Of a stretch of DNA of 49,691 bases, positions 3,549-49,691 are shown piece by piece; positions within the stretch are counted from its first letter, which is position 1, and every line of letters starts with the position of its first letter. Location of the stretch: positions 1 through 49,691 of IMG/VR virus record IMGVR_UViG_3300019889_000020; one strand, written 5' to 3'. The DNA comes from a virus. Under the pieces are notes generated by a model. The model saw only the letters and a list, made by a program, of their open reading frames with translations. It made no database searches and had not been told where the DNA came from. The position numbers and the translations under genes were made by a program.

Positions 3549-3572
3549 CTCTAATAGAGTTAGTTGATCCTA

Positions 3573-21470: not shown

Positions 21471-21977
21471 ATGCTTGAGATCAGAGGTTTCTCAGTAAAA
21501 ATGAGCATTGATGTTGGACGAGTTACGAAAACTCTAAACGAGAATATGTCCATTCAAATGAGACAAGCGGCTCGGGAATGGCTTCGAGCCGTTATCACAA
21601 AAGTTCCAGTTTGGACAGGAACAAGTAAGGGATCGTTTAAGCCTATTGGTCGCTTTCTCAATGTACAGATACCAATTTCTCCAGAAGTGTCACGTTCGGG
21701 AATGGGACCAGATGTCGGTGCAGACAAATCGGCATTCCATTTTTCACGTCGAAAAGGTAATCAAATTTTCACATTTGAGGTTGGCGTGGCACATTATGCT
21801 GTCAATGAATTTCATAATGTCAATCTCACTGGACAATTTCAGTTAAGAAATCCTGGACCCTATGCTTCTTTCAAGTTTGGTGAATTGGCATTTAACCGTT
21901 ACGTTGAGAATGTTATGCCGGGTCGTTTGCCAAAGCCAGAGACTTTTACCAAAATGACCAAGGTAAAGATTAAATAA
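21471..21977 (+). CDS. Probable tail completion / minor tail protein
   Basis: 168 residues between the chaperone and the tape measure. Early segment QMRQAAREWLRAVITKVPVWTGTSKGSFKP resembles the helix-plus-loop of HK97 gp10-like tail completion proteins, which bind portal-distal rings. ATG 21471 is chosen (CGGTAACA upstream); ATG 21501 is an alternative. A palindrome copy at 21447-21457 precedes it. The stop overlaps the tape measure start by one base (TAATG). Confidence 0.6.
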   Translation: MLEIRGFSVKMSIDVGRVTKTLNENMSIQMRQAAREWLRAVITKVPVWTGTSKGSFKPIGRFLNVQIPISPEVSRSGMGPDVGADKSAFHFSRRKGNQIFTFEVGVAHYAVNEFHNVNLTGQFQLRNPGPYASFKFGELAFNRYVENVMPGRLPKPETFTKMTKVKIK

Positions 21978-24900: not shown

Positions 24901-25678
24901 TCAGACACGTTCTCTTGCGATTGAGGCTGAGAAAAAGGGCATTGGCGATGCTACAGCACTTCTCCAAAAGCAAAAAGTAACTATGGATGAACTTGCCTCA
25001 ACTGCCAAAGTTCATCTTCTTAGTATTGAACGCTTGGCAAGTAGCTTTGGCTCAGGTAGAGCAGGTGGCTTACTAAATCAAATCGTGGATATTAACAAGG
25101 TAGATTTCAGTGATGAAGATGTTGCAAGAATGAAAGCCTGGGATAAGGAACTTATCAGTTTCTTGCAAAATGTCCCTGAGCATCAAGACAAGATAGAGTC
25201 TATACTTGCTGATTATCGTGCATTAGTCACAGAATCAGCAAAGGGTAAAGGACTAGATGTTGTAGATCCAGAAAATGCAGAGGCATTAACAAGTTACACA
25301 GAAATATTTAATCGTGCAGCTTCTGCTATTGAAAGATTGGGGAACATGCAGCCTCGATTTAAGCAAGATACCATGATGCTTAATTTCCTCAAGGATGCAT
25401 CAAAACAAATTGATCTAGATTTAGTTAATAAATTGAAAGAGAGTAATCCCGGTCTCGCTGAACTGGTTGCCAATACTCAGAAACTAACTAACCAAAATGT
25501 GAACATCAATAAATCTGCTCAAGCCCTATCTGCGGTAGCTGCCAGTGTTGGAGAAATTTTGGAACAATCTCAGGCTCTATTAGATTTGAAAATGCCTAAT
25601 ATTACGCTTACTCCGTCAACAGGTGTAGGTGGGCCTGTTGGCAAAGCTGCCGGTGGTATGGTGATCAAGGTAATTTAA
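21977..25678 (+). CDS. Tape measure protein (TP901-like)
   Basis: 1233 residues, the longest protein here. Residues about 180-460 show the TP901-type core: FSRQIGLIQTLSQNSGETFDTW, VTEIAAATYDALSNQI, and the helices around VNVLSSVLNSFGSAAGTSRQIVDQLF and GLSFQELNAGLIVLTQRG. A hydrophobic segment follows at about 535-620, and long charged helical repeats make up the rest. Such proteins fix tail length and enter the cell envelope. It ends in a Gly-rich AAGGMVIKVI, but the usual C-terminal domain lies downstream in another frame (25687-25968), indicating a frameshift. Confidence 0.9.
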   Translation: MATIISQYQIDADQAIATVQRLQQAYLRYNSAVGAMAIQTAAYNKKGGEAKVVFTQIDAAGRKVATTIREAGASYEVLSTKMTKASNSQRIMAMEMEKQRLLSDKLAKAVLGATPGTATTPTAFTGVPNATLIAKGAAEFRILTAEQVKAAAAANYLNATQTKALQNVVDGTQKVSKGFRAIGDSVAYFEGKLDEMARVAFHTAIYRGISLITQAIAEGVKEALEFSRQIGLIQTLSQNSGETFDTWTESIRAVADEFGRPVTEIAAATYDALSNQIIETTADMDKLRDAAELARNTNSNTADSVNVLSSVLNSFGSAAGTSRQIVDQLFTTVDLGRVRINELNTVVGRSGSILSTAGLSFQELNAGLIVLTQRGLDSAEAATLLNNISNQLIKPNEALAAQFKTMGFDSGFAAVKTLGLVGVMKELHLAALKTSEGIATFFPEIRGLRGAAAFAGEGLDQLREAQEALARSSGANKRATEVQNLNPGRQLLDEMERIKTFFTVDIGVKAIKYVAELTQQFGGLNKVVQFTTELFLHLAQYAISGVLLTAGFATFTVINNLVTGFWSLTRVLTVVQTTAAAAGISLRMLSVGGALTALTVLYYAAGGAVEYFESRNRHAIEKIVETEKKANATIKKLHEEESAHRISMFNAAIDVVNTGYNKFIAEFKKQNLVGIKSTADFGKSIANDLKNQFQVLESVAKSGLAKLEQQQSKASSNILKINRDKTDVLESLDSKRFDRQLQRQSELLEQDIASGFKDYGGVTKNPTKEILKIVNARNDLLRDKRKLAFDTGDIEAAKGFLDEILQNLDKLSDFKDVNNIRAPRREDRGRRFTNIDKAAASELADYNANAEEYQRTQEAITVNVANQVIEEKERAKALEDVLTKVAGFSKTLTDKDGNLVERFIGHPELARTELVKAQNEALKMASTLGEAMDPLVALQFNAALKEIEESFAKQRANADLTVLLGTQQAQATKYAQTRSLAIEAEKKGIGDATALLQKQKVTMDELASTAKVHLLSIERLASSFGSGRAGGLLNQIVDINKVDFSDEDVARMKAWDKELISFLQNVPEHQDKIESILADYRALVTESAKGKGLDVVDPENAEALTSYTEIFNRAASAIERLGNMQPRFKQDTMMLNFLKDASKQIDLDLVNKLKESNPGLAELVANTQKLTNQNVNINKSAQALSAVAASVGEILEQSQALLDLKMPNITLTPSTGVGGPVGKAAGGMVIKVI

Positions 25679-34781: not shown

Positions 34782-37508
34782 TTAAATCCTACGGCCATTT
34801 TGGAAAAACTTACCATCACGAACTGTGAGCTTGTGCTTGATAATTTCTCCTGGTGCTCTAGCAGCAAAATCAATATTACCGATATAACGCTGATTATTTG
34901 CTGCGGCACCATAAGGAAACTTGGGCGGTATCTCATCCCTAACGCGGTGTTTTGTCCAGGAAACTTTCTCATCAACAGGGCCGAGCCACTCAATAAAACG
35001 TTCGTAGAAATCGGTGTACTTGATCCACTCCCCGTCAACTTCATAGCACATCTCATCAATGAAACTCTCCAGGTAACTATAGTTCGCTCGGCTTGCCTGT
35101 TGCTTGATCTGTGTTGTGATAACTGGAATATTCAAGCGATCATTAGATGGTGGAACTTCTAACGTTAAGATCGCTTGAAGAAAATCAGGAGCTTCCGCCT
35201 GGAGCAACTCTAATAGATTTCGTTTGGGAATAAGTTCCAGGGGATCAATTGGAGCAACACTGATCATTGTAATACGGCTGTCACCCGGAAGTATCGGACA
35301 AGCGGAGTGATGATTCGCACATTGTATCCAGTGCGTACTATTGGGTATGGTATAAGGTGTCTTTGACTTAGGATGAACCAGGAACATCTTTGCTGTAACC
35401 CATTCCTTGATCCGATTGTACGCAAGTGATTTACCTCTACCTTTGCCAAGATCAACTTCCTCGATGACGCACAAGATCGCGGACGACAGTTCGCCATTGA
35501 AACTCGCCTCGCTAGTTAATGCGACCGATGCCGGTACAACAGCCCCTTGAGTAAGCAATAGGGAGATGGCTTCATGAAAGGAAGATTTTCCTGTATTCTG
35601 TTCCAATGAATAAAAGAAGAGATAGGGAAGTTGCTCCAGTGGGAATTGGAATAGAGAAGCTATCCAACACTTGAGATAGTCTGCTCCGGACAGAATGCCA
35701 TTGTTCAAACACCAGGGATGTTGGACAATCTCCTCATTCAATCCCTCACCGAGATGGTCAAGTAACTTGATCCAGGTTGGATAATGTAGATTTTCCTTTT
35801 CCTTATCCTTGGATGGTTTGAAACGGAGTTGAGCCGCATTCCTATTCCAACAACGTCCTCCCGGATATTCGACCTGGAAAGGACGATTGACAAGGACCCA
35901 TTGTTTCATGATGGCATTGCCCAACATCAGATCGACATCGGGACCAATATGGCCCTGACGCTTGACCGCTAGACGGACATGTACAAGTGGCTCCACTGAC
36001 CAACTTTCCGCAACTTTGATCACCCACCCGGCGTCCTCATGGGCCTCATTGACAAGGTGACGGAGAGCCTCATCATGATCAGCTAACTCAGGTTCAGCAG
36101 GGGCCGTATTTCTAATAGAGAAAACTCGCTGCCATTTCTTCGGAGTTGCAATCCAATCGTCCATTTTATCGGAAGTATCACCAGGCTCTCTAGTGACTTC
36201 CATGATGATCTTACCATCTTTCCTTTGCTTGATAGAGGCTTCGCGACCAGCTAGATTAGCTGCCAAAGTGACTTCGGCTCCCAAGGCAATGGCGGTATCC
36301 ATCGCTGCCTTAGCATAGGAGAAAATGTATCCTCCGGTAGGCTTCTCCTTTCCACCGTAGGAGTTAGCCAATGTAGGGAGATCAGGGTCACGGTTAAGAA
36401 AACAACGAGTCCACCCGGCACCATCTTGGGACCAGGAAGAGTGCTCTGCAACTCCGGGCGTGAAACGGCGTACTGCCCAACTGCCCTTACGTAGTGGAAA
36501 GCAGAAACAATTATGATCGGTGCCTCTTTCAGTGCCCGTAGAAATTGTTTCAAAAGGACCTCTCAAATCGAGATCGTTATGCATTTTCTTTAGAAACCAG
36601 GTATGGGTAACAAGCATATTGCGATCGGAATCCCAATACCAATAAGCCCCGTTAGAAGTAAGCCACTCAATATGGCTACGGTGTGAGGCGTCCAATTCTG
36701 CGTGTATTGACTTCGACGTAAGTTCATCAAAGAGGTCCTCCTGGTTACCAGAGCGTACCAACTCTGGTAGAGTTTTACGACGATCCCCTTTCACGACCGC
36801 GACATGATCTTTCCAATTAACCGGGATATCCTCGAAAATTGTGCCACTTTTGATAAGGAGAAGGACATTGGTATTGATCATTTTGCGGTGCCAAACCCAC
36901 ATATTGCCACCGCAGATATCCACCTTGCTACTAAAATCGTATCCTACAAAAGCAGATAATTGACCAAGAATACTACGAGCCAGAGCAGAATGTTCATGGT
37001 GAGTATTAGTAGGAACTTCTGCAAGAAAGACGTAGAGATGTAATCCCCTTCCTGAAGTTGAATAGCGTATATTAATCCAGGGAACTCCTTGGAGAAGTTG
37101 CTCGATTTGCTTGAGTTCCTCCTGTGTAGACTTACGGGTATGACGTTCCGAATGTCCCATGATCGCATCAAAATCGAAAGCGACCCAACGTGAAACTCTA
37201 TTTTTCCAATCCCAACCCGTCATACCGATGCCTTCGGCATGAGCTGCGATATCAAAGGACATTGGAACATCAGTATATTCAGGATTAGTTCCTGCGTTTC
37301 TAGGGATACGGAACGGTTTCCATTCCGTATCCCCATCAGTCCAGGCCATATAAGTACGGCCATTAAACGTTGGATCAATACGTGTCCCGCCATCGGCGGC
37401 GACATTGACCTGGCACTCCATATCATGGCTATAGAGTTCTGCCAAATCCTTGTGCGTGCTCAAGGTAAGGAACGTCTTGATCGCTTCAGTACGAGTAGGT
37501 TGAGTCAT
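34782..37508 (-). CDS. Primase-polymerase / SF3 helicase fusion
   Basis: 908 residues from ATG 37508 (AAGGAAAG upstream). The N-terminal domain is an archaeo-eukaryotic primase: WVAFDFDAI holds the DxD metal site (112 and 114), and YSTSGRGLHLYVF the conserved His (157). The C-terminal part is a superfamily 3 helicase: Walker A EQNTGKSS (636-643), Walker B AILCVIEEVD, and an SF3 sensor region around HWIQCANHHSACPILPGDSR. The protein would unwind and prime phage DNA. Palindrome copies lie at 35208, 36111 and just before the start (37524). Confidence 0.9.
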   Translation of the reverse strand: MTQPTRTEAIKTFLTLSTHKDLAELYSHDMECQVNVAADGGTRIDPTFNGRTYMAWTDGDTEWKPFRIPRNAGTNPEYTDVPMSFDIAAHAEGIGMTGWDWKNRVSRWVAFDFDAIMGHSERHTRKSTQEELKQIEQLLQGVPWINIRYSTSGRGLHLYVFLAEVPTNTHHEHSALARSILGQLSAFVGYDFSSKVDICGGNMWVWHRKMINTNVLLLIKSGTIFEDIPVNWKDHVAVVKGDRRKTLPELVRSGNQEDLFDELTSKSIHAELDASHRSHIEWLTSNGAYWYWDSDRNMLVTHTWFLKKMHNDLDLRGPFETISTGTERGTDHNCFCFPLRKGSWAVRRFTPGVAEHSSWSQDGAGWTRCFLNRDPDLPTLANSYGGKEKPTGGYIFSYAKAAMDTAIALGAEVTLAANLAGREASIKQRKDGKIIMEVTREPGDTSDKMDDWIATPKKWQRVFSIRNTAPAEPELADHDEALRHLVNEAHEDAGWVIKVAESWSVEPLVHVRLAVKRQGHIGPDVDLMLGNAIMKQWVLVNRPFQVEYPGGRCWNRNAAQLRFKPSKDKEKENLHYPTWIKLLDHLGEGLNEEIVQHPWCLNNGILSGADYLKCWIASLFQFPLEQLPYLFFYSLEQNTGKSSFHEAISLLLTQGAVVPASVALTSEASFNGELSSAILCVIEEVDLGKGRGKSLAYNRIKEWVTAKMFLVHPKSKTPYTIPNSTHWIQCANHHSACPILPGDSRITMISVAPIDPLELIPKRNLLELLQAEAPDFLQAILTLEVPPSNDRLNIPVITTQIKQQASRANYSYLESFIDEMCYEVDGEWIKYTDFYERFIEWLGPVDEKVSWTKHRVRDEIPPKFPYGAAANNQRYIGNIDFAARAPGEIIKHKLTVRDGKFFQNGRRI

Positions 37509-37527
37509 CTTACTTTCCTTGAATCTA

Positions 37528-37713
37528 TTAGAGAAGTGTATCAACTGAAGCAACTAACTCGTCAAAAGCCAGATCGGCTTTCCTGCATAGGTCCTCGAAA
37601 CCTGTAAACTCCTTATCCAATCGTTTGTACTCTTTCATGTCGCGGCGTGCCCTAACATATGCCTTGGCGGCGGTAATGACTCGATCTTCTTTTTTGAAAA
37701 ATTTAAAGAGCAT
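37528..37713 (-). CDS. Hypothetical helical protein (61 aa)
   Basis: 61 residues from ATG 37713, which overlaps the end of the sigma-factor gene by 11 bases; GAAG lies upstream. Lys-rich and probably wholly helical (EDRVITAAKAYVRARRDMKEYKRL). It may be an accessory protein of the sigma factor or primase, but this is only positional. Confidence 0.55.
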   Translation of the reverse strand: MLFKFFKKEDRVITAAKAYVRARRDMKEYKRLDKEFTGFEDLCRKADLAFDELVASVDTLL

Positions 37714-38269
37714 TGTACTTCTTCCATCTCCGTTTGAGGCGTCTTTTCGCTCGTGCAAAATCGACAATGATACGCTGATGATTGGTATTCAACCGTTTAG
37801 CTATCTCCTTTTTAGGTAATCTTTCCAATATGTACATTGTCACTATCGCACTTTCATACTCATTGAGACCGATTAATAGATCACTAAATCTATAAGAGTC
37901 GGGTTCAACTTCATATCCGTGATGATTATCGCTAATCGGATGACGATTCATGTGCTGAGCACGTTTGGCATCTTCTACTGTTGTTGCAAACTGAAAAGCT
38001 CGCTTTGGGATATGGAATGGACCTCGCCTAATCTTATACCACGTTAAATTTCGCTTAATATAATTTGCTGCATAAGCACCGAATGGAATTTTTAAATCTT
38101 TATTGTAATTGATGCGAGCTTCGCATAATGCAAGATAAGCTTCTTGGAGAGCGTCCTCATCTTGAGTGAGGTAACGCTCTTTTAACATCGTCCAAATTAG
38201 TCCGATGTTATCTTCAATTTGCTTATCCCATTCTAATTGTTCCTGGTGAGTTGTAGGTTCCTCATACAT
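37703..38269 (-). CDS. RNA polymerase sigma factor, sigma-70 family
   Basis: 188 residues, ATG after GAGGTACTC. Region 2-like residues about 18-90 include NIGLIWTMLKERY, EDALQEAYLALCEA and the aromatic-rich IPFGAYAANYIKRNLTWYKIR, which matches the core-binding and -10-melting segment. Residues about 132-182 (LNEYESAIVTMYILERLPKKEIAKRL followed by HQRIIVDFARAKRRLKRRW) match the region 4 helix-turn-helix. There is no region 1 and only a short linker, as in ECF-type or late phage factors. It may direct transcription from the three shared promoters. Confidence 0.8.
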   Translation of the reverse strand: MYEEPTTHQEQLEWDKQIEDNIGLIWTMLKERYLTQDEDALQEAYLALCEARINYNKDLKIPFGAYAANYIKRNLTWYKIRRGPFHIPKRAFQFATTVEDAKRAQHMNRHPISDNHHGYEVEPDSYRFSDLLIGLNEYESAIVTMYILERLPKKEIAKRLNTNHQRIIVDFARAKRRLKRRWKKYNAL

Positions 38270-38276
38270 GAGTACC

Positions 38277-39404
38277 TCACTCTAGTTTGGAAATGGACTC
38301 CCCGGCATAGAGGACACATTCCTCCAGCTTTTGGATGGCAAGAGACCGTTGAGCGTTATCAGGGCAACTTGCCCAAAGGATGGTAACAAGGGAGGAGGCC
38401 GCTTTTTGCACAGCGGTATTACGAGTAATCTCGCCCGGAGTCGGGGCTTTGTAGACGAAATAATCTATTGGAGCCGGCATACGATCCCTCACGTAGTTGA
38501 AACTATTACGATAGTTCTGATTGAATTGTTTGTTTCCAGCAATCCATGCGACCCTACCGCCAATGAAGATTTTGTCTCCCCATTGTTGGTATTTGATATC
38601 GCCGGTTCGCTTGGCTAAGTAGCCATATATCGGCAATATCAATAGATTGAGGTCAGGTGCTCCCGTAGTAAGTGTCATGTTCGTGGGCGGGTCAGCGTAC
38701 ACGAAAGATTGATTAGACTCTCGCCAATGTGTCTCCATGAGACCTTCACCAGCGAGTTTGATCGCGGGAAACACTTTGTCGTCATTGGAAACGACTTCCC
38801 ACATCATCAAGGCTTCACAGGCCAATCCCACCATAAAAGGCTGTGGCACCCACGTTTTCGAGATGAACCATTGATCGAAATGACCATAGAGATTGCGGAT
38901 GCGATCTAGAGTTTTCTTCTCCCGAACTTTACCTAGCGATTCAGCCACCAAATGAGCCATGATCGCATAGGCACATTCACGCGACCCATTTGCACTGACA
39001 AGATAACTTCCATGACCAACGGAATCGAGATCGGTAGCATAGGACGAATTGTTAGAAAGCAGCATTACGGAATCTTTTGAGAACGTGTCTCCTGTTCGTC
39101 GAAAATCTTCCGCCAATCCTTGCGGAAATATCCAGTAGCCTGGCAATCGACCCTGGTTCGGTAGCAGATAAGTATCGCGATAAAGTTGAACAGAGACCTT
39201 GGCAGCATCCAGCCATTTGGCATCCTTGGTGTAATCGTAAATCTGATAGAAAACCCGAGCCCCATCATAGTAAACAGGATTGAAATCAGGATTAGGCTTA
39301 CCACCCTTCCAATCGGTAAGAATTTTCTTTTGATTATTGGCATGCGTCAGTCCGAAACTGAGCATGTCCTTTTCCCACATTTTCTTAGCGTCGTCAAATG
39401 TCAT
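38277..39404 (-). CDS. Toroid (alpha/alpha barrel) glycosidase-like protein
   Basis: 375 residues, ATG 39404 with GAGGG upstream. The sequence repeats paired helices with aromatic and Gly/Asn-rich loops (YYDGARVFYQIYDYTKDAKWLDAAK, SRECAYAIMAHLVAES, HFDQWFISKTWVPQPFMVGLACEALMMWEV), the pattern of six-hairpin glycosidases and polysaccharide lyases. There is no signal peptide. Lysis or capsule breakdown are options, yet it lies inside the replication unit. No palindrome copy occurs in it. No catalytic residues can be assigned by eye. Confidence 0.6.
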   Translation of the reverse strand: MTFDDAKKMWEKDMLSFGLTHANNQKKILTDWKGGKPNPDFNPVYYDGARVFYQIYDYTKDAKWLDAAKVSVQLYRDTYLLPNQGRLPGYWIFPQGLAEDFRRTGDTFSKDSVMLLSNNSSYATDLDSVGHGSYLVSANGSRECAYAIMAHLVAESLGKVREKKTLDRIRNLYGHFDQWFISKTWVPQPFMVGLACEALMMWEVVSNDDKVFPAIKLAGEGLMETHWRESNQSFVYADPPTNMTLTTGAPDLNLLILPIYGYLAKRTGDIKYQQWGDKIFIGGRVAWIAGNKQFNQNYRNSFNYVRDRMPAPIDYFVYKAPTPGEITRNTAVQKAASSLVTILWASCPDNAQRSLAIQKLEECVLYAGESISKLE

Positions 39405-41309: not shown

Positions 41310-41726
41310 TTAGAACCATTTGTACCAAAGTGAGATTTCGCGGCGTGCTGCTATCTCGTCCGCAGAGCCGTGAATGGCGTTTTTCATGGAATCGACCATA
41401 TAAAGGTAACGAATTGTATCAGGTGCAGGCTCGGAATAGTTCCCCATAAGGGTACGGAACGCGGAAAAGACATGGTTGGGCTTCTTTTTCATCGTGAGCG
41501 TGCCAATTATGATGGGCGTATGCGTGTACATGCTCGCTATTAGATTTTCATAGAAGTCTTTTCCCTTATGTTCACCATAATGTGACTCTAATAGAGAAAA
41601 TTGGGGTATTAACATGGATAAATTCGTGACAGTGAAGCCTTTTTCCTCTATTAGAGAAATGATCTTTCCTGATAAAGAGCGTTGAATGGCATCCGGCTTG
41701 ATAATGAAGAATGTTTGTGGCAACAT
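41310..41726 (-). CDS. ndk: Nucleoside diphosphate kinase
   Basis: 138 residues from ATG 41726 (GGGG upstream). The fold signature is complete: TFFIIKPDAIQRSL at the N-terminus, SHYGEHKGKDFYENLI, DTIRYLYM and the catalytic His119 in NAIHGSADEI. The usual GTIRGDF is altered. The enzyme moves phosphate between NTPs and dNDPs; with the dNMP kinase in this unit it completes a dNTP-supply pathway. Two perfect palindrome copies lie inside (41586 and 41646), and a GCTATTAGAT near-copy at 41537. Confidence 0.85.
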   Translation of the reverse strand: MLPQTFFIIKPDAIQRSLSGKIISLIEEKGFTVTNLSMLIPQFSLLESHYGEHKGKDFYENLIASMYTHTPIIIGTLTMKKKPNHVFSAFRTLMGNYSEPAPDTIRYLYMVDSMKNAIHGSADEIAARREISLWYKWF

Positions 41727-41727
41727 A

Positions 41728-42099
41728 TCACATATCCCCGCTAAAAACATAGTTTGCAGAGGCTTCCATGACAACTTTGATCACATGTTCAGGTACATCA
41801 TGTTCCTCACCATCACGCTCGCCCTCGGAATTGAGGACACCTACGATCATCATAGACCCCACAATGCAATCGCCTACGCCTAGGGGCGTACCTACGCTAT
41901 TACACAGATAGGTAGCTAAAGCATTGAGCACGGGCTGTTTGTCCGAGCGTACCTTGGCTTCCTCATCAATGAAGCAAACACTATCAACCGTAAACGGGAT
42001 CATTTGTATCCATCCGCCGATGATCTTTTTCATATCATTGAAGCCTTTGATTTCTTGCACGATCGCAGGCTTGCTAACTTCAATCACGAGAACTTTCAT
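41728..42099 (-). CDS. DUF3846-like protein, first gene of leftward unit
   Basis: 123 residues. MKVLVIEVSKPAIVQEIKGFNDMKKIIGGWIQMIPF and the later CFIDEEAKVRSDKQPVLNALA and CIVGSMMIVG fit the DUF3846 pattern of phage and mobile-element proteins of unknown function. It is the first gene after the leftward promoter at 42241-42269 and lies 13 bases after a palindrome copy (42113-42123). The family role is unknown. Confidence 0.7.
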   Translation of the reverse strand: MKVLVIEVSKPAIVQEIKGFNDMKKIIGGWIQMIPFTVDSVCFIDEEAKVRSDKQPVLNALATYLCNSVGTPLGVGDCIVGSMMIVGVLNSEGERDGEEHDVPEHVIKVVMEASANYVFSGDM

Positions 42100-42240
42100 A
42101 CCTGTTCCTTTTCTCTATTAGATTCGCCATTTGGCAGATGATCGTTCATTTCTCTAATAGATTCGCTTAGCATTAGATTAGAGAAATTGATCGAGTGCAT
42201 GCATTCAAGCAGTCAATCACGGTCTGAGAGGTCCCCCGAT

Positions 42241-42578: not shown

Positions 42579-42713
42579 ATATGGGGAAACCACATGGCTG
42601 GCGAAAAGGTGTCTTTTCGCTGATTTCTCTAATCTAAAGGTAGGCGAATCTATTAGAGAAATCGGTCAAAGGCTTCAGCGACCGAATCTAATAGAGAAGT
42701 CAGAGGGCAGACA

Positions 42714-43790
42714 ATGGCAACGGCATCGGCGACAAACAATGCAACTGGGAACGCTTTCGAGAATGCGAAGTTCGAGCTGCGTGCGGCTCCAATGGACAAG
42801 ATCAGGCTGGGGAAATACTCTCTGAGAGAAGTTGATCGCAACTCGGAGAAGTACCAGCGTTTGCGGGACGCCATTGCGGCCACTAATGGCCCAATGCTTC
42901 CCATCCTTCTTCGCGAAATTGAGGACCCTGATAACAAGGGGAAGAAGGCTCTTGGCCTTATCGACGGACTCCAACGCTACTCGTGTTGTCTCGATCTCGG
43001 GTTCAAGACGATTCCGGCTCGCATCATTGACATGGACGATGCCCAGGTCGCAGCGGCCCAGATCATCGCGAACCATTCCCGGATCGACACCAAGCCGGTT
43101 GAGTACACGCAACAGCTTCACCGCATGTTGAACGCTGATCCTACCCTGACTCTAGAAGAGTTGAGCGATCAACTGCATTGTTCGGTGAAGTGGCTTCAGG
43201 ATCGGCTCAGTTTGGCCAAGCTTCATGAGAAGATCGGCCCCCTGGTGGACAACGGTGATATCTCCTTGGCTCACGCCTTCGCTCTCGTCAAGCTCAAGCC
43301 CCCGGAGGAGCAACTCCAGTTCGTTGAGCAGGCTCAGACGCAGACGATCCAGGAGTTCTCCGGCCACGTCACGAACCGGGTGAAGGAACTGAGAGAGGCG
43401 GCTCGTACTGGCCGCATCCCGAGTGACAAGGCGGCTTTCCAGGCTGTCCCGCACATGAGGGCGGTCAGGGAGATCAAGGCACAACTGGAAAGTCCGACCC
43501 TCGCTCCTGCTATCGTCAAGGACATGAAGGCCACCACTCCCGAGGAGGGATTTGCGGCGGGCGTCGCTTGGGTGTTGAACATGGACCCGAAGTCCATCGA
43601 GATTTCCAAGCAGCAGGCCGAGGATCGCAAGAAGGAGGATGAGGTCAAGAAAGAAGCCAAGAAGAAGGAGAATATCCGGAAGCGTGCGGAAGCGGCTCGT
43701 GCGGCTGCGGCTGACGCTGGCATCTCCTTGGAGATGAACGCGAACGAGGGTGAGGAAGAAGACGAAGACGAGGATGAAGACGACGAGTGA
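42714..43790 (+). CDS. ParB-like protein 1
   Basis: 358 residues. The N-terminal ParB/Srx-like domain has LREIEDP, LIDGLQRYSCCLDLGFKTIPARIIDMDDAQ and ANHSRIDTKPVEYTQQL. A following helix-turn-helix, LTLEELSDQLHCSVKWLQDRLSL, matches the KorB/ParB type. The C-terminal third is a charged helix ending in a long Glu/Asp run. ParB proteins bind palindromic sites, and two palindrome copies sit in its leader, 18 and 56 bases before the ATG. Composition is more GC-rich than nearby genes. The usual ParB CTP-pocket motif (GERR) reads DGLQRY here. Confidence 0.8.
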   Translation: MATASATNNATGNAFENAKFELRAAPMDKIRLGKYSLREVDRNSEKYQRLRDAIAATNGPMLPILLREIEDPDNKGKKALGLIDGLQRYSCCLDLGFKTIPARIIDMDDAQVAAAQIIANHSRIDTKPVEYTQQLHRMLNADPTLTLEELSDQLHCSVKWLQDRLSLAKLHEKIGPLVDNGDISLAHAFALVKLKPPEEQLQFVEQAQTQTIQEFSGHVTNRVKELREAARTGRIPSDKAAFQAVPHMRAVREIKAQLESPTLAPAIVKDMKATTPEEGFAAGVAWVLNMDPKSIEISKQQAEDRKKEDEVKKEAKKKENIRKRAEAARAAAADAGISLEMNANEGEEEDEDEDEDDE

Positions 43791-43887
43791 AGGGCATTGT
43801 TTCCTGATCGGATTCAATGATCCAGTTTCTCTATTAGATGCCGTACACGGCCTATTAGATGCGGCCTCCCTGTGATTGGGGCTCACA

Positions 43888-44376
43888 ATGACATTCAACA
43901 GTGTTGACGGGAATACGTATAACAGCGTGTACATTCCTATCAACATGACAAGTTGTCCCAAGCCAAAGGCGGAGTTGAATTTCACAATTCTACCGCCTTT
44001 CAACCTTCCCGGACTGAAAAGTCCAAACGTCAAAGGACTGAAAATCGTGTACCAGTTGCGTGCGACTCAGGGCGTGAAGCTCAAGCTCAATGGGCGAGAC
44101 AAACGGGGCAATCCTGTAAGTTTCACCGATGAGCAAATCGTCGCCACATCTTCCGATGAAGCTCTCCTGGCGGTGGTCGTTGAAGACGGTATGGTTGTCG
44201 CTCGCCCGATCGGTCCTCTTGGGACGGGTCAGGTCCAGGTCAACTTGCCTGATGTCGATGTTGATACCGAAGGGGAGCAGACCCTTTCCGGTATTCTTGA
44301 TATCGAGGTGGTGAGCGGTGTGGCAGTTGCGATTGACTTCCAGGCTGCCGAAACGTTCCCTCTTGAAGAAGCCTGA
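43888..44376 (+). CDS. Ig-like beta protein of unknown function
   Basis: 162 residues from ATG 43888 (GGGG seven bases upstream; a TTG at 43876 is an alternative). Mainly beta, with KGLKIVYQLRATQGVKLKLNGRDKRGNPV and VVVEDGMVVARPIGPLGTGQVQVNLPD resembling Ig-like or BIG-type beta-sandwich domains. No signal peptide. It lies between the ParB-like gene and a conserved phage protein, so a nucleoprotein or virion role cannot be excluded. A palindrome copy (43829) lies 48 bases before the start. Confidence 0.6.
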   Translation: MTFNSVDGNTYNSVYIPINMTSCPKPKAELNFTILPPFNLPGLKSPNVKGLKIVYQLRATQGVKLKLNGRDKRGNPVSFTDEQIVATSSDEALLAVVVEDGMVVARPIGPLGTGQVQVNLPDVDVDTEGEQTLSGILDIEVVSGVAVAIDFQAAETFPLEEA

Positions 44377-44438
44377 AGAACGTTTCTTCAGGTCAGTTCT
44401 CTAGTAGAGTTTCCTAGGTTTCAAAAAGGTTAAGTAAA

Positions 44439-45191
44439 ATGGCACGAGACAAGGGCGAAGTGCAGACGCTCACTAACCGTGAAGTTGGAACGATAGAGGA
44501 TAATCTTCCGGGTATCATCGACCCGAAGACGTTCTCAGTTCCGGCGATCGAAAACCCGTACAGTGAAGATTTCGCATCGTTCACAACGGGATTGTTCCTG
44601 CCGAGGTTGCAGCTTGAAGGAAGTTCTTCCAAGTTGGTGAAGAATCGGAAAGTTTCCGCTGGAAACTATATCATCATCACGGGCAAGGATGCTTTCGAGG
44701 TTCTCGGAGAGAAGATTGACATCTTGGTTCTAACATATCGGTCGAAAGCACTCGATCTGTCCGATACCAAGAACATTGTCGCCTCGTTCGACAAGAACTC
44801 CGAAGAATTTCGGCGTATCCAGGCCGCGGCTCAACAGAAGTCGAAGGGCTACCTTTACGGGCTCGATTTCCTCTGCTACATTCCCGACTCTAAGGGAGAA
44901 ACGAAGTACGCCAGTCTTTTCATGGGCAATCCGACCTTTCGCATGGCTGCCCGCAACTTCAAGCCGCTGATCGGTAAAGCGGTCACAATGGGTGTTGAAC
45001 TTATCAACAACACCGAATACACCTGGGAAGCTCCCACGATCGTGGCATGTAGCACTCCATTGAGCAACTATCCCTCGGCAGAGGAGATGGCGGCTCAAAT
45101 GAAGGATTTCGTGAACCCACCCAAGGGTCCGGTGATCGAGCGTGTCTCTGATGAGGAAGCTGTCGCCGCTGGCACCGACCGCGATCGGTAA
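44439..45191 (+). CDS. Conserved phage protein, possible ssDNA-binding role
   Basis: 250 residues, ATG after AAGGTTAAGTAAA. A compact mixed fold: LPRLQLEGSSSKLVKNRKVSAGNYIIITGKDAFEVLGEKIDILVLTYRSKALDL, then a middle helix and MGNPTFRMAARNFKPLIGKAVTMGVELI. The acidic C-terminus resembles tails of single-stranded DNA-binding or recombination proteins, but the family is not certain. Its position between ParB and helicase genes suits DNA metabolism. The gene is GC-richer than average. I would call it unknown if pressed. Confidence 0.55.
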   Translation: MARDKGEVQTLTNREVGTIEDNLPGIIDPKTFSVPAIENPYSEDFASFTTGLFLPRLQLEGSSSKLVKNRKVSAGNYIIITGKDAFEVLGEKIDILVLTYRSKALDLSDTKNIVASFDKNSEEFRRIQAAAQQKSKGYLYGLDFLCYIPDSKGETKYASLFMGNPTFRMAARNFKPLIGKAVTMGVELINNTEYTWEAPTIVACSTPLSNYPSAEEMAAQMKDFVNPPKGPVIERVSDEEAVAAGTDRDR

Positions 45192-45242
45192 TCGTAACGG
45201 CCCTGTCCTTCACAAAACCGGATTGTGATGTGGCAGGACTGG

Positions 45243-45272
45243 TCCCCCGGTAAGTCTCGGCTTACCGGGGGA
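45243..45272 (+). terminator. Strong 12-bp GC hairpin
   Basis: TCCCCCGGTAAG (45243-45254) and CTTACCGGGGGA (45261-45272) enclose the stable loop TCTCGG. It lies 51 bases after the stop at 45191 and 24 bases before the next gene. No T-run follows, so attenuation, RNA protection or factor-dependent termination is as likely as intrinsic termination. Confidence 0.6.
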
Positions 45273-45296
45273 TACATCCATTTAGAGAAAGTGATT

Positions 45297-45467
45297 ATGG
45301 TTACTAAAGTTTGGCCATTGCTCCTTGAATGTGATGGACAGAATTGCAAGAAGCAAACAATGGTCTATAGCAGGAATGAGAAAGTAGCAACTATTCCTTG
45401 GGATTGGAGAAAATTAGATACTTTTATTTATTGTCCCAAATGTGTAGAGAAAATGGGAATAGATTAA
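45297..45467 (+). CDS. Small zinc-ribbon protein (56 aa)
   Basis: 56 residues from ATG 45297 with AGAG upstream. Cysteine pairs CDGQNC and CPKC, separated by about 28 residues, suggest one zinc ribbon. It is one of several small zinc proteins in this unit (46190-46411, 49360-49521). The stop overlaps the next start as TAATG. A role as transcription or DNA-binding adaptor is possible. Confidence 0.55.
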   Translation: MVTKVWPLLLECDGQNCKKQTMVYSRNEKVATIPWDWRKLDTFIYCPKCVEKMGID

Positions 45468-46012
45468 TGCAAGTAATACCATTGAGTATGAGCCAGGTTA
45501 ACTGGTCTGATTATGTAAGCATTGCGTATAAGCATGTGGGCCATTCACCCACACGATCACTTGATGGAGCGGGAATCAAACCGGGTGATCCCTATAGCTT
45601 TTTAGCTAGCTTAGCGGAATTGGAAATTGAGGGAACTGATCCGCGTACAGGTGTACTCTCGGCCAATCATACGCTGGCACACGTTCATTTATCTTTTTTA
45701 TGTGTGCTATCTGCACAGGAACAGAATGCACTGAGAAACATTCCGATCCTGGATATTTCTTTCATTGATGGAAAAGAGGATTACGAATCTACTAGAGTTG
45801 ATCTCATGATCATCTCGGGAACACTTTTACACTGGCAATTAATCATTCCTTTAATGTTAGAAGGGCTTGATCTCTCTCGAACATACTATGTGAGAAGGAA
45901 GTTTTTCAATGCCATTTATAATTGGCTCATCAAATTTAATTTCAAGGACCTATTCGTCAGTTATAAGATTGTTCAATTGACAGATGGAACCTATTGCCTG
46001 GAGCCCAAATGA
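45467..46012 (+). CDS. Hypothetical protein (181 aa)
   Basis: 181 residues from ATG 45467, overlapping the previous stop by one base. Mixed alpha/beta with NHTLAHVHLSFLCVLSAQEQNALRN and a hydrophobic C-terminal half (LMIISGTLLHWQLIIPLMLEGLDL). No signal, no zinc cluster and no recognised family. The variant palindrome TCTACTAGAG lies at 45788-45797. Confidence 0.6.
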   Translation: MQVIPLSMSQVNWSDYVSIAYKHVGHSPTRSLDGAGIKPGDPYSFLASLAELEIEGTDPRTGVLSANHTLAHVHLSFLCVLSAQEQNALRNIPILDISFIDGKEDYESTRVDLMIISGTLLHWQLIIPLMLEGLDLSRTYYVRRKFFNAIYNWLIKFNFKDLFVSYKIVQLTDGTYCLEPK

Positions 46013-46197
46013 AAGAATTGTTCAAACGCAAAGTTGACAAATTGTGTCAATGGATAGCATGGAAGCTTCCTAAGCGAATTGCTATGTGGACCTATGTTAG
46101 AGTAGGTGCCCATGCGACTACCGGAAAGTATGGAGATACAGTGCTGCCTGAAATTACAATGATGGAAGCTCTTAAACGATGGGAATGTAATGGGTGA
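46009..46197 (+). CDS. Small basic protein (62 aa)
   Basis: 62 residues from ATG 46009 (GGAG five bases upstream, ATGA overlap with the previous gene). Basic and Trp-rich (KLCQWIAWKLPKRIAMWTYVRV), perhaps membrane- or DNA-associated. It overlaps the next gene by eight bases. No family recognised. Confidence 0.55.
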   Translation: MKELFKRKVDKLCQWIAWKLPKRIAMWTYVRVGAHATTGKYGDTVLPEITMMEALKRWECNG

Positions 46198-46411
46198 TAT
46201 AACGCACTATTGTCATTGGCCTGGTTGTCGCACACCAGTTTCACCAAAGTTATGGGGATGTAAGCGACATTGGTATGCTCTTCCGAAGGAATTACGCAAC
46301 AAAGTTTGGGATGCCTATGTTCCAGGGCAAGAAATCCGGAAGGACCCAACTGGAGAGTATATGGATGTGATGGCTGAACTTTACGCATGGATCAAAGCCA
46401 ATGGCGGGTAG
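46190..46411 (+). CDS. Small zinc-finger protein of phage type (73 aa)
   Basis: 73 residues. CHWPGCRTPVSPKLWGCKRHW is a C-x4-C-x9-C-x2-H zinc site followed by a helix (LPKELRNKVWDAYVPGQEIRKDP), a pattern seen in many phage and prophage small proteins of unknown function. It may mediate nucleic-acid or protein contacts. Overlaps its upstream neighbour, suggesting coupled translation. Confidence 0.7.
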   Translation: MGDITHYCHWPGCRTPVSPKLWGCKRHWYALPKELRNKVWDAYVPGQEIRKDPTGEYMDVMAELYAWIKANGG

Positions 46412-46570
46412 CATTCTCTGATAGCGTTCGGCTACATTGATGATCCCCAATCATCAGGGTTGATCGCCGGTCTCCGGGCGATTTAAAATCCGGGAGACAA
46501 AAAATAGGAGGACCTGGGTGATGATGGGATCACTTGGCAAATCCAATCTCTATTAGAGAAAGTGAAAACT
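46412..46570 (+). other. Intergenic leader with stem-loops before the helicase gene
   Basis: About 160 bases. Short arms pair around ATCATC/GATGAT (near 46439-46458), ATCGCC/GGCGAT (near 46462-46481) and CTCC..GGAG (near 46473-46498), so the leader is probably structured. A perfect palindrome copy (46548-46558) lies 12 bases before the helicase ATG. Confidence 0.5.
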
Positions 46571-48487
46571 ATGCCAGTTGTATCAATGATTTCTGTCAGT
46601 GGCCGTCACAAGTACAAAAAGGAAGTAGATATCAATTCTACTGGAAGAGGGACATTACAACTTGAGTTCGATTATGACGAATATCTCAAGGATGAAGTAA
46701 AGGCAATGGATGGTGCCAGATGGAATCCAGATATTAAAAGTTGGATTGTTAAGGATACTCCAAGGAATTGGTTTCAACTTCGTTTCCTCATGGGAGAGAA
46801 TCCTTATACTTGGTATGATGCTCCTCTAGTAGAGTTTGTTAGTCGGGTCGATACGATCTATCCGCAACAAATCCAAATGGTCAGGGAAGGACTGACCTAT
46901 CGGCAGATGATCTGGGCGGCGGAAATGGGCTTAGGCAAGACGCTTGCCGCTATCCTGATGATCGAGGAAGCTCTTGAACGTTGGAATTTTCGGAAAGTTT
47001 GGTGGGTTGGACCTAAGTCCGCTCTGGCCAGTTTCGAGGTTGAAGTGGCCACTTGGGGCATGCTTAATCTTCCCGAGAAGATCATGACCTATGAGGAGTT
47101 AGTCAAAACGGTAAAGAATTGGCCTCCCGGATTAAAAGCTCCTCAGATCATTATCTTGGATGAAGCTAGTCGTTGCAAAACGCCTACTACGCAACGAACA
47201 CAATCCGTCATGGAAGTTACTAAGGGAATGCGAGAAGATTATGGTGAAAATGAGCCATTCATTATCGAGATGACGGGAACTCCTGCTCCCAAGAGTCCAT
47301 TGGATTGGTATTCGCTTTGTGAAGTAGCCAAGCCCGGATTCATTCGCGAAGGCAATATACATAAGTTCCGGGATCGGTTGGGCGTAGTAGAAAAGCGAGA
47401 GTCTCCAGCGGGCGGGGTGTATCCACATACCGTAACATGGAGAGATAGCGAGAATAAATGTCGTCATTGTGGTTCCACTCGGGAGGAACATGATTTCGAT
47501 GTGATTGCGCGAGAGGGTATCGCACATGAGTTTCAACCAGGAATAAATGAGGTCGCAAAACTCTATAAGAGAATGAAAGGACTAGTTTCCGTTTACTTCA
47601 AGAAGGACTGGCTATCCTATCTTCCGGACAAACAGTATCGTATCCTTCGTTGCAAAGTTAGTCGGAGCACAGCCAATGCAGCATCATCTATCCAATCTAA
47701 TGCAAAACGGGCCGTAACGGCTCTTACTTTGCTCCGAGAGTTATCTGATGGATTCCAATATTCCGATATCGAAGAAGGCACCACGTCCTGCCCTCTTTGT
47801 CTTGGGTCGAAAAGGACAGAAGTTCCATTTGTCCTGGACGAATCAGGCAAGATGGAACTTCGAGAAGTTGAATGTACCAATTGTAGTGGCGAAGGAGTTG
47901 TCCCCAAATCTATTAGAGTAACTAACTCAGTAGCATGCCCAAAGGATGACATTTTAGAAAGTATTCTCGATGATCATGAAGATGGGCGATTGGTCATCTA
48001 TGCTGGATTTACTGGCTCTATTGATCGTATTGTTACATTATGCTTGCGTAAAGGTTGGGGCACGATTCGTGTCGACGGACGAGGATGGGAATCCTCACTC
48101 CCAGTCTCTGCCGATGTAAAGCAATCTTTACCGAAGAAACTATTGGATGTTTTCCAGAGAAAAGGTAAATATCCTATAGGATTTGATGAAAAGATCGCAT
48201 TTATTGGTCATCCGGGCTCGGCGGGAATGGGAATCACATTGACAGCGAGCAATGAAATCGTCTATTATTCCAATGATTTCAATGCGGAAAGTAGAATTCA
48301 ATCCGAGGATCGTATTCATCGTCCAGGGATGGACCTAAACAAGGGGTGTATGATCACTGATATTGTCCATCTCCCTTCGGACATAGTTGTCTTGAAGAAC
48401 CTCAAGGACAAGCGTAGACTCCAAGACATGAGCTTGGGTCTTTTCCATGAATCTATGAAGATGGCCGATGAAGATCGTTTGCTTTAA
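46571..48487 (+). CDS. SNF2-type helicase with internal zinc ribbons
   Basis: 638 residues from ATG 46571; GTG 46562 would add three. Motif I is AAEMGLGKTLAA (K123), motif II IILDEAS, motif III MTGTPAP and motif VI QSEDRIHRPGM. A short N-terminal segment, VKAMDGARWNPDIKSWIV, resembles the HARP domain of SMARCAL1-like annealing helicases. Zinc-like clusters follow: CRHCG, CPLC and CTNCSGEG. The protein would remodel or unwind DNA during replication or repair. Palindrome copies lie at 46548 (leader), 46824 (variant) and 47909. Confidence 0.85.
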   Translation: MPVVSMISVSGRHKYKKEVDINSTGRGTLQLEFDYDEYLKDEVKAMDGARWNPDIKSWIVKDTPRNWFQLRFLMGENPYTWYDAPLVEFVSRVDTIYPQQIQMVREGLTYRQMIWAAEMGLGKTLAAILMIEEALERWNFRKVWWVGPKSALASFEVEVATWGMLNLPEKIMTYEELVKTVKNWPPGLKAPQIIILDEASRCKTPTTQRTQSVMEVTKGMREDYGENEPFIIEMTGTPAPKSPLDWYSLCEVAKPGFIREGNIHKFRDRLGVVEKRESPAGGVYPHTVTWRDSENKCRHCGSTREEHDFDVIAREGIAHEFQPGINEVAKLYKRMKGLVSVYFKKDWLSYLPDKQYRILRCKVSRSTANAASSIQSNAKRAVTALTLLRELSDGFQYSDIEEGTTSCPLCLGSKRTEVPFVLDESGKMELREVECTNCSGEGVVPKSIRVTNSVACPKDDILESILDDHEDGRLVIYAGFTGSIDRIVTLCLRKGWGTIRVDGRGWESSLPVSADVKQSLPKKLLDVFQRKGKYPIGFDEKIAFIGHPGSAGMGITLTASNEIVYYSNDFNAESRIQSEDRIHRPGMDLNKGCMITDIVHLPSDIVVLKNLKDKRRLQDMSLGLFHESMKMADEDRLL

Positions 48488-48518
48488 GCGATCTAAATCT
48501 AATAGAGAAAGCACAACG

Positions 48519-49400
48519 ATGAGCACGACACTTGAAATGGGCCGTAAGATTGTCAAAGTTCCGATGAACAAGATCAAGCACATTGACGAGCACAACTGTC
48601 GGGGACGGGTACAGCCACAGGATTGCGTTACATTGGCTGCACGCATCCGTACCGAAGGGCTGTTGTACCCTATCCAGATTGCCAAACTTCGGGAACCTGA
48701 GGGTGAGTACGAATATGAGATCATCGCCGGTTTTCGCCGTTTCATGGCACACCGGATCAATGAAGCTGAAACGATTGAATGCGAAATTCTATCAGATTCG
48801 CTATCGGAAGCGGATAAGGCCGTTATTAATTTAACGGAGAATCTTTCCCGAGCCGATTTGAATATCCTCCAGGAAGCCGCAGGACTTGATCGAATCAAAC
48901 GTCTCCGTTCTATGACGCAAAAAGAGTTAGCCGATACCCTAGGCGTGTCACAGAAGTGGGTCCAGATTCGGCTCTGGTCCCTGGAACTTGAACAGCCAAT
49001 CCAGGAAGATATTCGAAAAGGTTTCCTAAAACAACAGCACATCGAACAACTCAAAGCTCTCCCTGCTGGCGCGAAGCGATTTGCTTACGTCAAGCAGGTC
49101 AAATCGGCCCAGCTCTCCAATGAGAAGCCTCGTGTCTCATTAGCAAAGAAGAATCCGTTCTCAAAGAAAAGGCGAGAGCGGGTAGAAATCTTTGAGATGC
49201 AAGATCATCTATTAGAGTCGCTCGGCGGGGGAAGAGTTGACAAACTCCCCGAGAACGCTCGTCTGATTTTGCAGGCACTCGGTTGGGCTGCTGGGGAGAC
49301 AACAGATATGGAAATGTACGGGACTCTTCGTGCGATTGCGAAGAAGAATGGGTTGCATTATGAAATACCAGAGTCAGCAATGTCAGCCCTCCAAGGATGA
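48519..49400 (+). CDS. ParB-like protein 2
   Basis: 293 residues from ATG 48519, 11 bases after a palindrome copy whose AGAGAAAG is the likely ribosome-binding site. The N-terminal domain has KVPMNKIKHIDEHNCRGRVQ, GLLYPIQIAKL and YEIIAGFRRFMAHR, the ParB box whose usual form is GERR. It then has NLTENLSRADLNILQEA and a helix-turn-helix, MTQKELADTLGVSQKWVQIRL. A basic linker and helical C-terminus follow. With protein 1 it gives two different ParB-type DNA-binding proteins in one unit and no ParA in the window. Confidence 0.85.
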   Translation: MSTTLEMGRKIVKVPMNKIKHIDEHNCRGRVQPQDCVTLAARIRTEGLLYPIQIAKLREPEGEYEYEIIAGFRRFMAHRINEAETIECEILSDSLSEADKAVINLTENLSRADLNILQEAAGLDRIKRLRSMTQKELADTLGVSQKWVQIRLWSLELEQPIQEDIRKGFLKQQHIEQLKALPAGAKRFAYVKQVKSAQLSNEKPRVSLAKKNPFSKKRRERVEIFEMQDHLLESLGGGRVDKLPENARLILQALGWAAGETTDMEMYGTLRAIAKKNGLHYEIPESAMSALQG

Positions 49401-49551: not shown

Positions 49552-49691
49552 ATGAGTGAGCCAATTTTCTATGATACGGAAACAGTTGGTCTTCAGGGGC
49601 CAATTGTTCTTTTGCAATATGCTCAGGGAGATGATCCTGTTAGTCTCCATTCCGTCTGGACGGAACCAATTAGTGACACGATGGTAATTAT
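49552..49691 (+). CDS. 3'-5' exonuclease / DNA polymerase I-type gene, partial
   Basis: The frame is open to the window edge. It begins MSEPIFYDTETVGLQGPIVLLQYAQG, the Exo I motif (D-x-E-T) of family-A DNA polymerases and DnaQ-type exonucleases. It follows a helicase and ParB genes, as expected for a replication module. The rest is outside the window, so polymerase and stand-alone exonuclease cannot be separated. A degenerate palindrome (CTAATAGAAAA) precedes the ATG. Confidence 0.75.
   Translation, partial: MSEPIFYDTETVGLQGPIVLLQYAQGDDPVSLHSVWTEPISDTMVI

Follow-up and report, generated by a model that had tools for sequence, protein, structure and literature searches.

Which protein of a phage reads a palindrome that is scattered over the whole of its genome? 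The question is raised by the IMG/VR record IMGVR_UViG_3300019889_000020, a linear viral contig with a siphovirus gene set whose full 49,691 bases, here called the window, hold dozens of copies of the palindrome CTCTAWTAGAG and, near one end, the genes of two ParB-type proteins, ParB1 and ParB2. A preliminary description had proposed, from co-occurrence, that these proteins read the palindrome. Across related contigs we find that the palindrome changes together with the helix-turn-helix (HTH) domain of ParB2, which is the likely reader on this comparative evidence, and that the covariation of ParB1 is weak or none; the proposal thus holds up for one protein and not clearly for the other. Carried by a family of uncultured bacterial viruses, a palindrome that changes in step with the HTH of one ParB suggests a means of marking the viral DNA and coating or silencing it.

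A dispersed palindrome selected at the DNA level

535-49217, unstranded: dispersed palindrome CTCTAWTAGAG, first to last copy, 63-71 copies

CTCTAWTAGAG occurs at 63 places in the window with at most one mismatch and TCTANTAGA at 64, with a union of 71, and CTCTATTAGAG gives 87 strand-hits at the same tolerance, compared with 0.66 in shuffles. In the tested coding sequences TCTANTAGA was counted 44 times, against a mean of 1.24 and a maximum of 6 in 400 shuffles of synonymous codons within genes, and control patterns in the same sequences were counted 3 times (reversed) and once (unrelated). Because the coding copies far exceed those in the synonymous-codon shuffles, the sites are selected at the DNA level. 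Intergenic copies are enriched as well (17, with 3.9 expected), and 17 of the 57 window genes have a site at most 60 bp upstream, versus 4.3 for rotated sites. The centre base on the gene strand is T in 41 cases and A in 23, a weak bias for which avoidance of stop codons may be the cause.

The sites had been described as evenly spaced. This is true of the window, where the coefficient of variation of the spacing is 0.62 versus 0.98 for random sites and none of 5000 random placements was as even, but evenness is not general, since of eight other records only G002 shows it clearly (P 0.0007), G005 does so nominally (P 0.03), and the remaining six do not. Pair spacing and helical phasing between neighbouring sites were sought and none was found; short gaps are rarer than random.

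Two ParB-type proteins and no ParA

42714-43790, plus strand: ParB1, 358 amino acids, with ParB_N, HTH_ParB, and a long charged C-terminal tail; glutamate of ENxxR replaced (Pfam, alignment A1)
48519-49400, plus strand: ParB2, 293 amino acids, with ParB_N, HTH_ParB, and a helical C-terminal domain; GxRR and ENxxR intact (Pfam, alignment A2)

That the window encodes two distinct ParB-type proteins with HTH domains was borne out, with Pfam matches over the cut-offs in both (ParB1: ParB_N 3.7e-7 and HTH_ParB 3.1e-9; ParB2: ParB_N 1.6e-7 and HTH_ParB 3.5e-11). In profile searches against solved structures, the relatives of ParB1 include Spo0J (1e-22) and the nearest of ParB2 is Noc (7ol9, 8e-30). 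The AlphaFold model of ParB2 (pLDDT 90.4) was matched by Foldseek to the Noc/ParB/KorB fold (Noc 7nfu, 4e-12), and a solved E93A mutant of a ParB is among the fold matches listed. By sequence and predicted structure, ParB2 is a member of the ParB/Noc/KorB CTPase family, closest to Noc and KorB.

The glutamate of the ENxxR box (the P-motif) serves CTP hydrolysis. Both CTP boxes, GxRR and ENxxR, are intact in all 66 distinct ParB2 sequences, and these motifs, together with the fold, predict that ParB2 binds CTP. At least 85 of the 87 distinct ParB1 sequences have lost this glutamate (to alanine in 60, threonine in 13, glycine in 10, and leucine in 2), and the asparagine is kept in all 87.

The absence of a ParA partner, noted earlier for the window, extends to all nine records examined, including the window, in none of which PF13614 or PF01656 was found, although the records may be fragments. 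The ParA-binding motif [LFI]G[KR]G[LFI] is likewise found in 0 of 87 ParB1 and 0 of 66 ParB2 sequences. The ParB2 model begins with a disordered segment and has its first strand at residue 11, so there is no room for an amphipathic membrane helix of the Noc type; membrane-tethered occlusion as by Noc was rejected, as the ParB2 model has no amphipathic helix.

Relatives keep the gene module and change the palindrome

44439-45191, plus strand: gp250, conserved module protein (44 of 44 contigs)
45398-46012, plus strand: gp204, conserved module protein (44 of 44 contigs)
46562-48487, plus strand: SNF2-type helicase/translocase, lying between the two ParB genes (Pfam SNF2-rel_dom 4.3e-9; PHROG DNA helicase 9e-46; 44 of 44 contigs)
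49553-49691, plus strand: 5' part of the gene that follows ParB2 and runs past the window end; in relatives, a family A DNA polymerase
34782-37553, minus strand: primase (PHROG; DUF5906), with a leader rich in sites across relatives (28 of 44)

Profile searches yielded 57 ParB2 loci and 117 ParB1 relatives, of which 80 were kept; all of these records may be fragments. Palindromes were sought in loci of at least 7 kb and their presence was counted in loci of at least 10 kb. For the covariation analysis, 67 loci were dereplicated to 44 contigs, after four (L150, L158, L190, and L192) had been left out by hand for weak or GC-biased motifs. Alignment A3 comprises 18 of the 22 relatives listed and the window, and alignment A4 comprises 12 of 16 and the window.

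The order ParB1-gp250-gp204-SNF2-ParB2 is found at similar relative positions in all 44 dereplicated contigs, with the primase upstream on the other strand and, in 39 of 44, a family A DNA polymerase downstream of ParB2 (Pfam DNA_pol_A 5e-19 in one member). Because these contigs were picked for both ParB genes and a motif, co-occurrence of the module among them is no test by itself. ParB1 and ParB2 were, at the profile-search loci too, nearly always found together.

The nearest relative, represented by two contigs of one sample (3300021976), shares 57% identity in ParB2 and 72% in the terminase and has the same palindrome. Between the window and four close-relative contigs, with a mean protein identity of 54%, 18 of 55 aligned coding sites are conserved within 3 bp (0.42 expected); site positions turn over while the density stays. 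In more distant relatives CTCTAWTAGAG is not abundant, and these carry palindromes of their own, among them TGATTNNNNAATCA, GATTTNNNAAATC, GATTNNNNNAATC, GATT-N4/5-AATC, GATG-N4-CATC, GCTC-N4-GAGC, TGAGTTTAAACTCA, TGATTTactAAATCA, GATATNNNATATC, GATTANTAATC, TGAGTTAcTAACTCA, and TGATTCCGGAATCA. Their half-sites have 4-6 bases in a total of 11-15 bp, and their density is about 0.4-2.5 sites per kb.

Among loci with both ParB genes, 62 of 80 have a palindrome, or 42 of 58 once dereplicated; where only ParB1 is present the count is 9 of 13, where only ParB2 is present it is 1 of 5, and 16 of 18 loci with neither ParB above threshold were without one. The two palindrome-positive loci in the last group are both high in GC and were taken for composition effects. 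A relative with the same motif and without both ParB genes, which the preliminary description had named as evidence against its proposal, was not seen in any contig long enough to judge; the motif without any ParB occurs in three records (G004, G016, and G017), all of them fragments of 9-19 kb. In two records a repeat array ranked above the palindrome or competed with it, and both were taken as tandem repeats and left aside: a GGCC-type array in L012 (G004), of CTCGGCCC and shifted forms in 22-25 copies, and a CTTAAG-type array of 8 copies in G015.

The helix-turn-helix of ParB2 covaries with the palindrome

Covariation of motif and HTH residues had been put forward as a check, and among the 44 dereplicated relatives it is present for the HTH of ParB2 and weak or absent for that of ParB1. 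In partial Mantel tests of motif distance against protein distance, the ParB2 HTH covaried with the palindrome when the remainder of ParB2 was controlled for (r 0.335, p 0.0005) and with ParB1 controls added (r 0.30, p 0.0025); under the same controls the ParB1 HTH gave r 0.09 (p 0.18). Relative to the mean of the other module proteins, the values were 0.344 (p 0.0003) for the ParB2 HTH, 0.136 (p 0.084) for the ParB1 HTH, and 0.207 (p 0.013) for gp250, with no signal for primase or gp204. When each contig was used once, in 22 independent pairs, the partial r was 0.52 (p 0.013) for the ParB2 HTH and 0.006 (p 0.98) for the ParB1 HTH, for which six distances gave r 0.02-0.21 with p at least 0.36 in these pairs. 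Over six definitions of motif distance the partial r of the ParB2 HTH stayed at 0.26-0.37, with p at most 0.005. At matched backbone identity, similarity of the ParB2 HTH fell from pairs with the same motif to pairs with different motifs (0.44 to 0.36, 0.48 to 0.41, and 0.54 to 0.43), and the drop was smaller for the ParB1 HTH (0.49 to 0.44, 0.51 to 0.51, and 0.59 to 0.54).

In a sliding scan the best window of ParB2 is its recognition helix. For Caulobacter ParB, R173 is the residue that touches the outer guanine of parS, a position occupied by Q in Noc, according to the accessible part of the source (PMC7383237). In a HMMER alignment the R of the ParB2 sequence 'SRGW' falls on the R173 position, which is R in 29 of the 44 contigs, 25 of them as 'RG'. 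Contigs with R have GATT, GATG, or GAT half-sites in nearly all cases (one has GCTC), and where another residue stands, the outer bases are mostly altered or more strongly specified; for the CTCT lineage, the window has Q and its nearest relative P, and neither has a GAT half-site. Several lineages keep the G without the R, so the match of residue to half-site is suggestive and not exact. In ParB1, recognition-helix residues are scrambled relative to motif class.

Palindromes in the leaders of the module

Within the window, a motif scan placed copies of the palindrome, all unstranded, as follows:

42113-42123: leader of the divergent minus-strand genes, mirroring the ParB1 pair
42152-42162: second of the mirror pair, 39 bp away
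42648-42658: ParB1 leader (ATCTATTAGAG)
42686-42696: ParB1 leader, second copy, 38 bp from the first (ATCTAATAGAG)
43829-43839: between ParB1 and the next gene
44399-44409: gp250 leader
46548-46558: directly 5' of the SNF2 helicase gene
48497-48507: ParB2 leader
49207-49217: within the ParB2 coding sequence

The earlier statement that both ParB genes have copies in their leaders is right for the copies at 42648, 42686, and 48497, but the copy at 49207-49217 lies inside the coding sequence of ParB2. Each divergent leader thus has one pair of sites, 38-39 bp apart (42113/42152 and 42648/42686). A promoter scan of this divergent leader region gave predictions at chance.

In the set of 44 contigs, site enrichment is seen around the gene starts of ParB1 (33), gp250 (29), and the primase (28), each against 11.3 expected, and not around those of gp204 (9), SNF2 (9), or the polymerase (9 of 39 versus 10.1). 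Of the roles that the preliminary description listed together (coating, condensing, protecting, marking for packaging, and repressing), the enrichment of leaders across relatives points to repression in addition to loading sites.

Proposed mechanism

We hold with moderate confidence that ParB2 is a protein like Noc or KorB that acts without ParA, loading on the dispersed palindrome, spreading from it, and repressing replication genes. A dimer of ParB2 would bind the palindrome through its HTH domain, close on CTP, release the palindrome as a sliding clamp, and spread over neighbouring phage DNA, as Noc and KorB do. With 0.4-2.5 loading sites per kb, such clamps could cover most of the genome, and by acting at the leaders of the ParB1 operon, of gp250, and of the primase, ParB2 would repress replication genes and regulate its own module, as KorB does on RK2. 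ParB1, which has lost the P-motif glutamate, is the second ParB of the module and probably serves as a partner or reads something other than the palindrome; a role as regulatory partner is our guess.

A bolder and tentative picture, to which we would give clearly less credence, is that of an apparently non-integrating phage family with a 'phage nucleoid', in which the ParB2 clamp coats replicating DNA, the SNF2 protein removes clamps, and ParB1 acts as regulator, with a loading code that coevolves in each lineage so that every phage marks its own DNA against that of host and competitors.

Several observations weigh against ParB2 as a reader that loads and spreads in this way. Most of the sites fall in coding DNA, and the leaders of ParB2 itself are barely enriched (16 of 44 versus 11.3). 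Sixteen of the 58 distinct loci with both ParB genes have no clear palindrome; a looser scan found a weak signal in about 7 of them. The ParB1 HTH reaches r 0.21 (p 0.02-0.03), only under information-weighted distances and not in the independent pairs. A cruder motif distance, restricted to the five strongest columns, found no covariation with any protein (values of about 0.15 or less throughout); we think misaligned half-sites explain this, yet it counts against. Windows of SNF2 equal the ParB2 recognition helix in partial r in the sliding scan, the whole SNF2 protein gives r 0.309 (p 0.004) against the module background, and the SNF2 and ParB2 genes are neighbours. Finally, the Mantel p-values leave some phylogeny in.

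Alternative readings of the palindrome

The alternative that survives best, though we consider it unlikely, is that ParB2 or another phage repressor sits statically on the palindromes and blocks transcription locally, in the manner of stoperators, with no CTP clamp and no spreading. The sites upstream of window genes and the three enriched operon leaders in relatives would fit such local blocks, and, as far as the accessible text of PMC6550527 tells, Cluster A mycobacteriophages have dispersed repressor sites that vary by lineage. The sites here are, however, palindromic and mostly intragenic, and their bias in orientation is weak at most (T 41, A 23). The CTP motifs of ParB2 are invariant, and there is no sign of lysogeny, because no tyrosine integrase was found in nine records (serine integrases and repressors were not searched).

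If instead ParB1 were the reader, the covariation of ParB2 would be an effect of linkage. ParB1 leaders are the most site-enriched place of all, as autoregulation would predict, and the information-weighted distances give the ParB1 HTH its nominal signal. We nevertheless regard this as quite improbable: none of the six distances yields a ParB1 signal in the 22 independent pairs, the recognition-helix residues do not follow the motif class, and the P-motif glutamate is gone from nearly all ParB1 sequences.

It is still more doubtful that something else, such as the SNF2 translocase, a phage sigma factor, or a host protein, reads the palindrome and that the ParB pair only travels along. The pair-bearing loci without a clear palindrome speak for it, as does the SNF2 covariation, which is comparable to that of ParB2 before ParB2 is controlled for; once it is, the SNF2 value drops to r 0.09-0.14 (p at least 0.10), and half-sites of 4-6 bases within 11-15 bp suit a dimeric HTH protein. 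Partition of a plasmid type, with the palindromes as centromeres of an extrachromosomal prophage, is hardly credible and was rejected for want of ParA: membership of the ParB family fits it, and an element with five parS cores TTTCACGTGAAA (L196, below) exists nearby in sequence space, but neither ParA nor its binding motif was found in the sets searched and the sites are spread genome-wide and not clustered.

Neighbouring genes and more distant relatives

The structural genes of the window and further genes near the module are the following:

3564-5228: terminase
5274-7100: portal
13704-15161: major head protein
21977-25678: tape measure
37703-38269, minus strand: sigma-factor-like protein (PHROG 1.8e-13), adjoining the primase
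38277-39404, minus strand: protein of 375 amino acids with a weak Acb2/Tad1 hairpin domain match (1.7e-4, under the Pfam cut-off)
41310-41774, minus strand: nucleoside diphosphate kinase (Pfam NDK 9.7e-32)

The sigma-factor-like protein could use the same leaders as the module, and the kinase gene is of interest near a presumed CTP-dependent protein. Proteins of the Acb2/Tad1 family are sponges for anti-phage defence signals. Scans of gp250 and gp204 members matched no Pfam or PHROG family, and the predicted structure of gp250 (pLDDT 72.7) has no significant fold match; from its gene position, our guess is that gp250 may be a single-strand binding protein.

In a search for cultured relatives among 50,697 phage records, tblastn with ParB1 found no match, a second ParB1 gave 15 weak partial matches, and ParB2 gave 39, none covering 80%; of 480 terminase matches, the 20 listed are all below 25% identity. 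No dispersed palindrome of the GATT type was seen in four records with ParB relatives: Gordonia phage Dogfish, a contig of faecal origin, and two from wastewater. In genome contigs the search for relatives returned two loci. L194 lies on an 11.4 kb contig of a Thioalkalivibrio metagenome-assembled genome (MAG) and has relatives of ParB1 (6e-87) and ParB2 (2e-61) and the palindrome GATA-N5-TATC (9 versus 0.1), a weak hint of Thioalkalivibrio as a possible host of the clade. L195, on an 883 kb Crenarchaeota MAG contig, has a ParB1-like protein (6.5e-31) and no GATT-type dispersed palindrome nearby. L196 (OR846716, from wastewater and labelled as a Listeria phage) carries two ParB relatives, separated by about 3 kb, along with the ordinary parS core in five copies, which indicates that our palindrome finder recovers parS.

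Comparison with known systems

Dispersed sites for proteins of the ParB family are known from chromosomes (Noc) and a plasmid (KorB). As a genome-wide feature of phages we found no description of them in the literature searched, which lacks most subscription papers. A survey of the ParB-CTPase fold in phages stresses fusions to methyltransferase and DUF domains, and its accessible sections make no mention of dispersed palindromes (PMC12704722). If the proposed role of ParB2 is right, these phages offer dozens of protein-palindrome pairs as a natural library in which to study how specificity evolves in the ParB family, an example of CTP clamps used without ParA, and a means by which a phage labels its genome as its own.

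With chromosomal ParB and parS the system shares the order of domains, the CTP boxes, and the specificity position of the R173 type; it differs in having no ParA or ParA-binding motif, as far as searched, in its unclustered sites, and in sites of 11-15 bp rather than the 16 bp of parS. The stoperators of Cluster A phages are likewise scattered over phage genomes and vary in sequence between lineages in parallel with their repressor, but, in the sections of the source available, they are 13 bp long, asymmetric, mostly oriented with transcription, and bound by an unrelated immunity repressor in temperate phages (PMC6550527), whereas the sites described here are palindromic, mostly intragenic, and associated with a ParB-family protein in phages in which no integrase was found.

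KorB of plasmid RK2 is, in the available text of PMC11790492, a CTP clamp that slides from distal operators and represses near and far promoters at long range. ParB2 matches its fold (8qa9, TM-score 0.68 by target), and candidate operators, enriched in the leaders of ParB1, gp250, and the primase, may be a further likeness; promoter prediction in the divergent leader region was at chance. Unlike KorB, to which it is 20% identical, ParB2 would serve many more sites, and no clamp lock like KorA was identified, no KorA search having been made; ParB1 or the SNF2 protein may be the partner of ParB2.

Noc of Bacillus and Geobacillus is the nearest solved relative of ParB2 by sequence and fold. It differs in its amphipathic membrane helix, for which ParB2 has no room, and ParB2 differs in turn in belonging to a phage genome, with a palindrome other than the Noc binding site (NBS), a C-terminal domain outside the matched part, and a place in a replication module beside a second ParB. 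What the two would have in common is sites scattered over a genome, here as candidates: in the part of PMC8429893 accessible, Noc nucleates at 16 bp sites distributed over the whole chromosome and spreads from them, and ParB2 may do the same on phage DNA.

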